From Sphingobacteriaceae bacterium (GTDB lineage: Bacteria; Bacteroidota; Bacteroidia; B-17B0; Aurantibacillaceae): a DNA stretch of 64,000 nt. The notes beneath the pieces were generated by a model, which was not told the origin of the DNA, did not search any database, and was given only the letters and a program-made list of their open reading frames with translations. The stretch's first letter is position 1; each line of letters opens with the position of its first letter. Position numbers and translations under genes: made by a program. This document shows, in pieces, positions 16,888 to 45,355 of this stretch. The stretch lies in assembly GCA_947453445.1 (NCBI GenBank), contig CANGGP010000012.1, positions 1 to 64,000 of the forward strand. Reading direction: 5' to 3'.

Positions 16888-17062
16888 TGAATTTACATGT
16901 TATCAAGTTCTATAGCTTTTAGATGGATACAAATAAAAAAACCGATTAACGGGATACAGGCTCGTGTACCATTTCGTTGGTCATGAAAAGAAGCTTGGAA
17001 AATTTCCATATCCCTGATGCCGTTGCGCCAAGCTGACAAATCGGTGATGCCTAAGCTTTAAA

Positions 17063-17251: not shown

Positions 17252-17390
17252 AATCTTTTCTTTTAATTGTTGCCATACAAAGGTGATTGACTTAATGTTT
17301 AGATGCTTATACTTTATCCATGATTTATTATACAATTCACGCATTTAGAATTGGCTACATGATTTTTTCAGAGACAAGTTTGATTTACCG

Positions 17391-18056
17391 GTAGTCCCGG
17401 AGAGACCAAACAGTAATAAAAAACACTTAGCGCTTATGTTGCCCCGGAGGGGCAAAACAATTGGCTTATACTAATTCGAAAATCTTTGGTGGATTAGATA
17501 CGCTGATCATCTCTTCTCAGCGTTGCAAATGCCAAATGTCTTGCACGTTTAATTTACCAATGGTCCCGGAGGGACCAAACAGCTTTAAAAAAGACACTCA
17601 GCGTATTTGTTGCCCCGGAGGGGCAAAACAATTCGTCTATGTGCTAACCGAAAATCTTTAGTGGATTAGCTGCGCTGATCATCTCTTCTCAGAGTTGCAA
17701 ATGCCAAATGTCTTGCCTGTTTGATTTACAATGGTCCCGGAGGGACCAAACAATTTTAAAAAAGACACTCATCGTATTTGTTGCCCCGGAGGGGCAAAAC
17801 AATTCGTCTATGTGCTAACCGAAAATCTTTAATGGATTAGCTGCGCTGATCCCTTTTTTGCAGAGTTGTAAATGCCAAACATCATGTGCCTTTGATTTAC
17901 AATGGTCCCGGAGGGACCAAACAGTTTTAAAAAAGACACTCAGTGTATTTGTTGCCCCGGAGGGGCAAAACAATTCGTCTTTGTGCTAATCGAAAATCTT
18001 TAGTGGATTAGCTGCGCTGATCATCTCTTCTCAGAGTTGCAAATGCCAAATGTCTT
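17391..18056. repeat. 171-bp tandem repeat array with paired GGA-loop hairpins
   Basis: About four units repeat with an exact 171-bp period: GCCCCGGAGGGGC begins at 17441, 17612, 17783 and 17954. GGTCCCGGAGGGACC begins at 17562, 17733 and 17904, with a decayed first copy near 17393. Both are hairpins with the same CCC-GGA-GGG core and different outer pairs. Each unit also carries GGATTAG..GCGCTGATC and GCAAATGCCAAATGTCTTGC. The period is a multiple of three but every frame has stops, so it is non-coding. The last unit runs into the cloverleaf element. Confidence 0.9.
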
Positions 18057-18167
18057 GCGCTCAAGCGCAAGATTTTTGTTTTTGCAGCTACACTTTCAAA
18101 AGCAAGCTTTTGACGTTGCGCTGCAAAAACAAAAATGCCAGCCTTAAGGCTGGCACATTTGGCATTT
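18041..18167. repeat. 127-bp cloverleaf of nested inverted repeats
   Basis: A 13-bp outer stem (18041-18053 with 18155-18167) encloses three arms. One is TTGCGCTCAAGCGCAA (18055-18070). The second is a 17-bp stem (18072-18088 with 18120-18136) capped by TCAAAAGC/GCTTTTGA (18096-18113). The third is GCCAGCCTTAAGGCTGGC (18137-18154). Almost every base is paired. The left outer arm is also part of each 171-bp repeat unit. It lies 5 bp beyond the 3' end of the truncated tRNA-Arg. It could act as RNA or as DNA cruciform; function is unknown. Confidence 0.85.
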
Positions 18168-18172
18168 ACCCG

Positions 18173-18232
18173 TGACCCCGAGAGGATTCGAACCTCCAAC
18201 CAACAGAACCGGAATCTGCCATTCTATCCAGT
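18173..18232 (-). pseudogene. Truncated tRNA-Arg (CCG), 3' part only
   Basis: Reading leftward from 18232, the D-loop remainder ACTGGATAGAAT, the anticodon arm with CCG and the variable loop match the intact tRNA-Arg at 18637-18710. The T arm (GGAGG/CCTCT) and the 3' acceptor strand CGGGGTC-A differ but still pair. The matching 5' strand GACCCCG is missing; the D-loop instead runs into a CGGGAG/CTCCCG hairpin and GC-rich palindromes. It therefore looks like a second tRNA-Arg gene that lost its 5' end. Confidence 0.8.
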
Positions 18233-18291
18233 CGGGAGGTAAACTCCCGATGGCGAGCGCGCCTCGAACCTGTGGCGAGCACGCCTCGCCA
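18233..18291. repeat. Hairpins replacing the 5' part of the truncated tRNA
   Basis: CGGGAG-gtaaa-CTCCCG (18233-18249) is followed by a degenerate TGGCGAG-CGCGC-CTCG (18251-18266) and a full TGGCGAG-CACGC-CTCGCCA hairpin (18273-18291). The last type recurs at 18774-18792 and 18871-18889, next to fragments of the intact tRNA gene. Confidence 0.75.
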
Positions 18292-18332
18292 TTGAACTCT
18301 TCACGCTATGGCACAGTCAAGCTATTGGCTTT

Positions 18333-18602
18333 TTAATCTTCCTTAAAATACTTTCTAATAAACTTTCTTAAATCCTCAGTGTTAAGATTCTTGAGTTTTT
18401 TTTCAAGAAGCATTGCCTCGCCTCGAGTTTTCTTCTCTAGATATCCGATTAAAGTATAAGGCAAATGAGGCTTTGTGGATTTTACAAATCCTTGATTGTG
18501 TCGATCTATTCTGGTGTTTATATCGTTGGTTTGGCCAATATAAAATCTGTTTGATCTCTTTGAATAGAGGACATAGACAAAATATAAATCACTCTTTTCG
18601 AT
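18333..18602 (-). pseudogene. GIY-YIG nuclease domain protein lacking a normal start codon
   Basis: The frame encodes about 89 residues: YFVYVLYS, then RFYIGQTNDINTRIDRHN, KSTKPHLPYTLIGYLEKK, and EAMLLEKKLKNL. This is a full URI-type GIY-YIG domain with the YIG triad, the Arg/His of RIDRHN and the Glu of EAMLLEK. Upstream of DLYFVY the frame closes at a TAA (18603-18605) with no ATG, GTG or TTG. An ATG at 18628 is in another frame. The gene is thus frameshifted, or starts at ATC. It lies 34 bp past the 3' end of tRNA-Arg, between the intact and truncated tRNA copies. Confidence 0.82.
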
Positions 18603-18636
18603 TTAGTCGTCAAAAATAATTTAAACATAAAATTAG

Positions 18637-18710
18637 TGACTCCGGCGGGATTCGAACCCACAACCAACAGAACCGGAATCTGCCATTCTATCCAGTTGAA
18701 CTACGGAGCC
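18637..18710 (-). tRNA. tRNA-Arg, anticodon CCG
   Basis: The cloverleaf is complete: acceptor GGCTCCG/CGGAGTC, D stem GTTC/GAAT, anticodon stem GCAGA/TCTGT with loop TTCCGGT (anticodon CCG, codon CGG), T arm GTGGG-TTCGAAT-CCCGC, discriminator A. CCA is not encoded. It is preceded by a TATCTTTG promoter box. Its first 15 bases plus upstream flank are repeated twice more upstream. Confidence 0.95.
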
Positions 18711-18904
18711 TAGGGTGTCAAAGATATTTAATTTATTGTTGAAATATAAAACCAATTTTAATTGATTTTATTATGGCGAGCTAGCCTCGCCATTGAACTA
18801 CGGAGCCTAAGGTGTCAAAGATATTTAATTTATTGTTGAATTATAAAACCAATTTTAATTGATTTTATTATGGCGAGCTGGCCTCGTCATTGAACTACGG
18901 AGCC
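18696..18904 (-). repeat. 97-bp tandem repeat of tRNA-Arg 5' end plus promoter
   Basis: The 15-bp tRNA 5' piece (TTGAACTACGGAGCC on the plus strand) occurs at 18696, 18793 and 18890, exactly 97 bp apart. The first two copies are followed by near-identical 80-bp AT-rich flanks with the promoter box. In copies two and three the tRNA body is absent and its place is taken by the TGGCGAG-CNNGC-CTCG(C/T)CA hairpin. The third copy is only the 15-bp piece. Confidence 0.88.
18719..18726 (-). promoter_or_regulatory. -7 promoter box of tRNA-Arg
   Basis: TATCTTTG on the minus strand is an exact match to the Bacteroidota TAnnTTTG box, placed 9 bp before the tRNA 5' end. The same box recurs at 18816-18823 in the second copy of the 97-bp repeat. 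Confidence 0.7.
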
Positions 18905-18997
18905 TTATAATCGCAAATATAAGACGATATTTTGTGTCGAGACCATGTAATATTATACTTATTTTAGCGTTATAATTGCCGCAATGAGCCCCAATAC

Positions 18998-45240: not shown

Positions 45241-45355
45241 CTCGACTACGCTCGATGTGACACCTCGACTACGCTCGATGTGACACCTCGACTACGCTCG
45301 ATGTGACACCTCGACCACGCTCGATGTGACACCTCGAAGCTGCTCGATGTGCCAG
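45241..45355. repeat. 23-bp tandem repeat, five copies
   Basis: Units starting CTCGACTACGCTCGATGTG begin at 45241, 45264, 45287, 45310 and 45333, the last two with substitutions. Each contains TCGAC..GCTCGA, able to fold on itself. The array lies in the 395-bp gap between the PrsW gene and dedA; related single pieces (GTCGAGCATCTC, GTCGAGCGGATC) occur at 45145-45180, as does a CCCGAT-TGTT-ATCGGG hairpin (45179-45194). Confidence 0.9.

Follow-up and report, generated by a model that had tools for sequence, protein, structure and literature searches.

Structured gene-less mini-elements located directly behind tRNA and tmRNA genes in Bacteroidota

What is a 127-nt stretch of AT-rich bacterial DNA that folds almost completely upon itself, and why does it lie beside a tRNA gene? 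The question is raised by positions 18041-18167 of a 64,000-nt window, namely the whole stretch analyzed here, from a Sphingobacteriaceae bacterium of the phylum Bacteroidota (GCA_947453445.1, contig CANGGP010000012.1). The first-pass annotation had described this stretch as a fully paired cloverleaf that is neither a tRNA nor a terminator, and had proposed that it is either a DNA cruciform recognized by a nuclease or recombinase, or a small structured RNA co-transcribed after a truncated tRNA. The observation itself is confirmed. The stretch folds at -68.3 kcal/mol on the plus strand and -72.2 kcal/mol on the minus strand, against -33.5 +/- 3.1 and -35.6 +/- 3.3 for 200 dinucleotide shuffles each, none of which folds as well (z about -11 on both strands). 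The plus-strand fold comprises an outer stem of 13 bp (18041-18053 / 18155-18167), an arm of 7 bp (18054-18060 / 18065-18071), a central helix of 17 bp (18072-18088 / 18120-18136) with inner stems of 2 and 7 bp, and a further arm of 7 bp (18137-18143 / 18148-18154), for which the earlier count of 9 bp included two bases that the fold assigns to the outer stem. Searches with ARAGORN and with the Rfam tRNA model recovered only the intact tRNA-Arg (CCG) at 18636-18710 on the minus strand. The direct neighbor of the cloverleaf, four bases away, is a 61-nt tRNA-Arg copy (18172-18232, minus strand) that is 90% alike, such that, when read on the minus strand, the cloverleaf follows a tRNA 3' end. A search against 4227 Rfam families at gathering score returned no match on the element, either in the window or in 20 relatives, the only matches being to tRNA, tmRNA and, elsewhere in the window (16942-17048, minus strand), to Atu_At1 ("Rhizobiales sRNA"; 65.5 bits against a gathering score of 60), which might be another structured repeat in this Bacteroidota genome.

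The cloverleaf is not unique, and its occurrence as a single copy without homologues had been named in advance as part of what would undo the observation. A DNA search of the window's own genome recovered a second full copy, 79% alike, directly behind tRNA-Lys on another contig, and in a sample of 100 genomes 10, including the own genome, had a match at E <= 0.001. Twelve copies read in the tRNA direction share the outer stem, arm 1, the central arm and, in most of their folds, arm 3, while arms 1 and 3 change in sequence and stay paired. In the alignment of these copies 95.4% of the counted cells are paired, against 83.9 +/- 1.0 for shuffles, and 19 of 39 pairs show double changes against 9.6 +/- 1.7; 0 of 500 shuffles were as high on any of five measures, and slid versions of the structure reached at most 55.1%. 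Arm 3 and part of arm 1 were left out of this count because the alignment does not line them up. A covariance model derived from the copies (R1) matched 30 of 40 genomes of the genus, with up to 27 matches in one genome when both strands of one place are counted, 68 of 295 sampled genomes of the class at E <= 0.01, and 12 of 296 sampled genomes of the phylum at E <= 1e-5, the own genome being counted throughout. Two of the last set lie outside the class; of these, one locus (L255; L-numbers denote retrieved loci) shows, by eye, a tRNA-Ser 3' end directly before the element, and the other (L258) a tRNA-like remnant. A sequence pattern of the central arm matched 56 stretches of species genomes, all with titles naming Bacteroidetes groups or genera of Bacteroidota, and one viral contig. 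Cultured hosts whose records match this pattern include Robertkochia marina, Zeaxanthinibacter sp. PT1, Altibacter lentus and Aestuariivivens marinum.

The element sits immediately 3' of tRNA or tmRNA genes. We examined 58 loci, which are the best matches retrieved from the genus and class searches rather than all matches, and 42 of them have an intact tRNA or tmRNA gene ending -3 to +6 nt before the element on the sense strand: Ser 10, tmRNA 7, Lys 5, Arg 4, Cys 4, His, Leu, Gln, Pro and Met 2 each, and Ala and Val 1 each, that is, tRNAs for 11 amino acids besides tmRNA. For 37 elements without an intact gene the upstream flank was compared with 170 tRNA 3' ends; 29 score 15 or more and 8 do not (L047, L052, L066, L078, L125, L192, L209, L210), with the break often lying in the T-arm, commonly at AATC. 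Of the 16 such loci among the 58, 12 reach 15, whereas none of 200 random positions does (maximum 10), although this control scored 40 nt with an early stop and was slightly simpler than the comparison itself. The pattern of the central arm, which contains no tRNA information, agrees: of 60 matches in 57 records, 40 have an intact tRNA or tmRNA ending 27-41 nt upstream, a narrow band set by arm 1, and three of the other 20 lie within 38 nt of a contig end. This set is independent in method but not in loci, as at least eight of its 57 records appear to be among those retrieved before, and it also overlaps the 37 elements above, which themselves appear to contain the same contig twice at least once (L021, L169). 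The own genome has 14 matches with both strands counted, of which seven places were inspected, at Lys, Cys, Phe and Arg(ACG) genes and at Ser, Arg(CCG) and tmRNA-like remnants. In one genome, G039, 14 elements were examined, of which 12 lie behind intact tRNAs (Ser x3, Asp x2, Lys, Met, Leu, Cys, Gln, Phe, His), one is a tandem second copy, and one lies behind a tmRNA remnant.

Behind the cloverleaf come about 20 nt and a hairpin of the form GGGATCA-nCGnnGn-TAATCCC, followed in a part of the loci by a second copy of the tRNA 3' end. Exact repeats of the tRNA end of 10-17 nt occur in 11 of the 42 intact loci, each found in 0 of 200 shuffled flanks, while the other 31 lack an exact repeat of 10 nt; at tmRNA, the 14-nt core occurs twice in 5 of 30 loci, 174-181 bp apart. 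For some tRNAs whose T loop reads AGTCC or ATTCC the element end still reads AATCC (Asp, Phe), so that identity there begins near nucleotide 60 and ends near 74. The left arm of the hairpin pairs with the T-stem of its own tRNA at 3.40 of 5 positions, against 2.49 +/- 0.12 when shuffled (0 of 2000 as high). This comparison parsed 42 distinct hairpins from 94 places with a tRNA, chose hairpins partly by stem pairing and misread the T-stem in a few cases (L037, L123, L217); hence, the effect size is uncertain. Two alternative parsing schemes selected wrong hairpins, and one of them gave a weaker result (33 hairpins, 76 of 5000 shuffles as high). The far hairpin has a longer loop than a T-arm, unlike a simple attachment site with identical overlap. 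Tandem arrays occur (L109, L118, L126, L277, L282), and the further copies away from the tRNA often lack the left half. In the window the terminal hairpin (GATCAGCGCAGCTAATC and flanks) lies at 18005-18023 (minus strand), where in relatives such a hairpin precedes the repeated tRNA 3' end, and 17378-18058 (minus strand) comprises four tandem units of about 171 bp that carry the right end of the element (TTTGGCATTTGCAAC, terminal hairpin) and two G+C-rich palindromes, GGTCCCGGAGGGACC and TTGCCCCGGAGGGGCAA.

Does the fold act as double-stranded DNA or as a single strand? In 72 elements folded on both strands, G-U pairs account for 136 of 3346 pairs on the tRNA-sense strand and 69 of 3222 on the other, with 43 elements leaning to sense, 9 the other way and 20 neither, and the sense fold has the lower energy in 70 of 72. 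The strand was taken from the best model match, which equals that of the tRNA in all 41 intact loci common to both data sets, and the elements are related, so that p values are too small. By part, the bias is seen in arm 1 (21/540 against 4/559) and in the central arm (78/1630 against 34/1525), is weaker in the outer stem (23/689 against 13/649, p 0.11), and is absent from arm 3 (14/469 against 16/455). Arm 1 loops are often GNRA-like, and arm 3 loops often C-GNA-G. Thus, folding seems to be selected on one single strand, as RNA or ssDNA, although arm 3 gives no support for RNA. The near-palindromic layout and the matching of many copies by the model on both strands might be taken to favor a double-stranded cruciform cut by a nuclease or recombinase, but this asymmetry of G-U pairs and folding energy makes that reading very unlikely. 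Arm 1 (18156-18135, minus strand) and arm 3 (18052-18073, plus strand) are each a G+C-containing hairpin followed by TTTTGTTTTT, and hence resemble intrinsic terminators in opposite directions, the former for transcription coming out of the tRNA; termination itself is inferred from this likeness alone. Arm 1 with its T-run is in the right place for a tRNA terminator, but it is only one of four helices, and the rest is not needed for termination.

The interpretation in the first-pass annotation is supported only in part. It is borne out in that the element is not a tRNA, the fold is under selection with covarying homologues, and there are copies at other tRNA genes, and a structured RNA co-transcribed with the tRNA fits the strand bias; its statement that the structure is no terminator fails in part, and its cruciform is disfavored.

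These same features raise the possibility of a host-serving structured 3' trailer of tRNA transcripts, that is, a terminator plus a folded RNA that is kept by selection, inherited with each tRNA gene, and spread only by recombination between tRNA loci. The strand bias of arm 1 and the central arm, the lower sense fold and the terminator likeness are in its favor, as is a tree of the elements in which tRNA types cluster (23 changes, against 30.5 shuffled and a least possible 13; 0 of 200 as low), albeit with only 2 of 48 inner branches well supported. The three closest cross-genome pairs likewise share a tRNA or remnant type, as expected of elements that carry their own tRNA end or are inherited with it, and much of the distribution could therefore be inheritance with the tRNA. 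However, pairs at different tRNAs of one genome reach 82-85%, and presence is patchy at orthologous genes: at tmRNA 12 of 30 retrieved loci carry the element by R1 and a 13th (L081) by eye, and at tRNA-Lys 7 of 26 readable ends of 30 loci, one of them cut by a contig edge. Moreover, 227 of the 295 class genomes show no match under strict filters, arm 3 lacks a strand bias, and neither the tRNA-end repeats nor the tandem arrays are explained by a trailer, which leaves it a doubtful alternative.

Larger elements use the same site. At tmRNA several members of the genus instead carry ORFs that look by eye like large serine recombinases or tyrosine integrases, and in six loci (L086, L088, L096, L099, L100, L104) recombinase-like ORFs, again by eye, run without a stop into the antisense strand of the tmRNA 3' end. 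In G039 a protein with the PF00589 integrase domain lies beside the tmRNA and, about 46 kb along the same contig, there is a tmRNA remnant plus cloverleaf, the stretches read being 46.5-66 and 75-94.5 kb and not the middle. The viral contig (L221) has phage-like ORFs, a tRNA-Ser 3' fragment, the cloverleaf, and then host-like ORFs. This would explain truncated tRNAs as displaced ends of inserts. No clean empty site was found among the loci examined: two tmRNA loci, L085 and L107, at first resembled insertion-free versions of L090, but GGAGTAAGG repeats shared with remnants elsewhere and an integrase-bearing element showed that they are better taken as ends of larger elements. A candidate for a larger version at tRNA-Lys of genome G009 (L144/L161) has only an arm-1-like left part, with no second att core in 19 kb. 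An all-against-all BLAST comparison of ORFs within 1.5 kb in 70 loci, some of them the same place retrieved twice, recovered no recurrent ORF, but only ORFs running over element and tRNA, tRNA-Lys and tmRNA neighborhoods, and a few groups of three genomes; it linked no enzyme to the element.

In the window the displaced end would belong to a smaller insert. Between the intact tRNA-Arg and its partial copy lies a GIY-YIG ORF (18336-18602, minus strand; PF01541, 51.1 bits) of 89 codons from stop to stop with no in-frame ATG seen, and beyond the partial copy, at about 18233-18300, palindromes interrupt the D-arm side; the truncated tRNA is inferred to be the displaced end of the GIY-YIG insert. 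The own genome repeats the order tRNA, GIY-YIG, partial tRNA, cloverleaf at tRNA-Ser (L111, on contig C10), where a truncated near-copy of the GIY-YIG gene also lies behind the cloverleaf and att repeat, as if re-inserted at the same tRNA-Ser. Of 30 retrieved GIY-YIG loci of the genus, a few of which are neighbors on one contig, 19 have a tRNA on the same strand within 91 nt, 13 upstream and 6 downstream, and tRNA copies beside such genes (L223, L226, L231, L236, L239, L248, as well as the window) are interrupted by G+C-rich palindromes inside loop regions, as if the spare tRNA were disabled or protected. Match counts of cloverleaf and GIY-YIG correlate over 40 genomes (Spearman 0.40, p 0.01; presence table 25/5/3/7, Fisher p 0.003), but these genomes are related and the p values too small, and cloverleaf count correlates equally with genome size (0.41, p 0.009). 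It is conceivable that these endonucleases cut tRNA genes and that the cloverleaf is a non-autonomous passenger of their repair. Yet the GIY-YIG unit repeats about 55-60 nt of the tRNA in the two own-genome loci and not 15-17, one genome (G016) has 21 R1 matches and no GIY-YIG hit at 1e-6, and the endonuclease gene lies beside rather than within the element in the window, L111 and L059, only the window and L059 having a related ORF in a comparison of 80 loci. Homing of this kind is thus unlikely, and the link is better seen as that of a second tRNA-linked insert; nothing here shows that the protein cuts the cloverleaf.

Taken together, we favor, with a probability of roughly 0.55, the view that the cloverleaf is the body of a small ORF-less insertion element, of about 160 unique bp plus a repeat of about 15-17 bp of tRNA end, that targets the 3' end of tRNA and tmRNA genes. 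In this view the tRNA would stay whole because its 3' end is duplicated, arm 1 with its T-run would replace the terminator, and the element, like a tRNA-integrated genomic island shrunk to its ends, is probably inserted and lost by site-specific recombination at the T loop, using an enzyme supplied in trans by resident elements that use the same site. The repeats, arrays, patchy presence and copies at many tRNA types point to insertion, and we prefer recombination in trans over free transposition at moderate confidence. What the analysis establishes directly is the family, its fold and covariation, the linkage to tRNAs, the tRNA-end repeats in a part of the loci, the likeness to a terminator, the strand bias and the T-stem matching, whereas insertion as the origin, termination in vivo, mobilization in trans, the identity of the enzyme and any role of the whole cloverleaf as RNA are inferences. 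Single-strand transposition by a Y1/HUH (RAYT-like) enzyme that recognizes the hairpins, as for REP/BIME repeats, could be suggested by the C-GNA-G triloops in arm 3 (30 loops among 72 elements), a loop type that is very stable in single-stranded DNA, and by the partial tandem copies that keep the right end. However, the number of Y1_Tnp matches does not follow copy number (Spearman 0.17, p 0.29), two genomes with 17 and 16 matches (G030, G012) have no Y1 match, and a repeat of the target is not expected of this mechanism, rendering it improbable. A more far-reaching possibility, to which we likewise attach little likelihood, is that the element colonizes many kinds of tRNA gene of a genome through RNA, with the tRNA-cloverleaf transcript as the moving form, a bacterial counterpart of a tRNA-linked SINE, and the end hairpin tuned to each tRNA's T-stem as the targeting device.

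Among described systems, the tRNA/tmRNA-integrated genomic islands collected by Islander (PMC4383910) also sit behind a restored tRNA or tmRNA gene with a displaced 3' fragment at the far end, which the present family shows in a part of the loci, and can occur in tandem. The present element differs in being about 175 bp long, with no gene and no room for an integrase, and would not be listed there, as that search rejects candidates under 2 kb and those without an integrase gene. The ssrA islands of Dehalococcoides (PMC3146451) are gene-carrying islands with the serine recombinase DsiB at one target, and hairpins are not mentioned in that account. REP/BIME palindromic repeats and MITEs are short, gene-less, palindromic, non-autonomous and present in several copies per genome; they differ from the present element in its fixed position at tRNA 3' ends with a repeat of the tRNA end, its conserved four-helix layout and the absence of a correlation with Y1 here. 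The literature search returned PMC3733652 and PMC12306157 in this connection. A study of human microbiomes (PMC8040213) reports 250 palindromic candidate RNAs, one of which (HMP_4078, 109 bp) occurs mainly in Bacteroidetes near phage integrase domains, and an overlap with the present family cannot be excluded. Otherwise, our literature search, which reached few subscription papers and no bioRxiv preprints, listed nothing that by title or opening of the abstract describes such an element. If our reading is correct, the element would be a widespread inhabitant of tRNA 3' ends in Bacteroidota, far below the size cut-off of an island search, and it makes testable how small a site-specifically integrated element can be and still move, and whether bacterial genomes carry tRNA-linked elements whose folded single strand matters. 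In practical terms, attachment sites of larger elements in these bacteria can lie between the tRNA and this element, and several matches lie at contig ends.

Two further repeats were noted in the window. Directly before the intact tRNA-Arg, at 18696-18905, lies a 97-bp repeat in 2.2 copies that is made of the first 15 nt of tRNA-Arg, upstream sequence and a TGGCGAGC-type palindrome. At 45241-45351 a 23-bp tandem repeat, CTCGACTACGCTCGATGTGACAC, is present in 4.8 copies.
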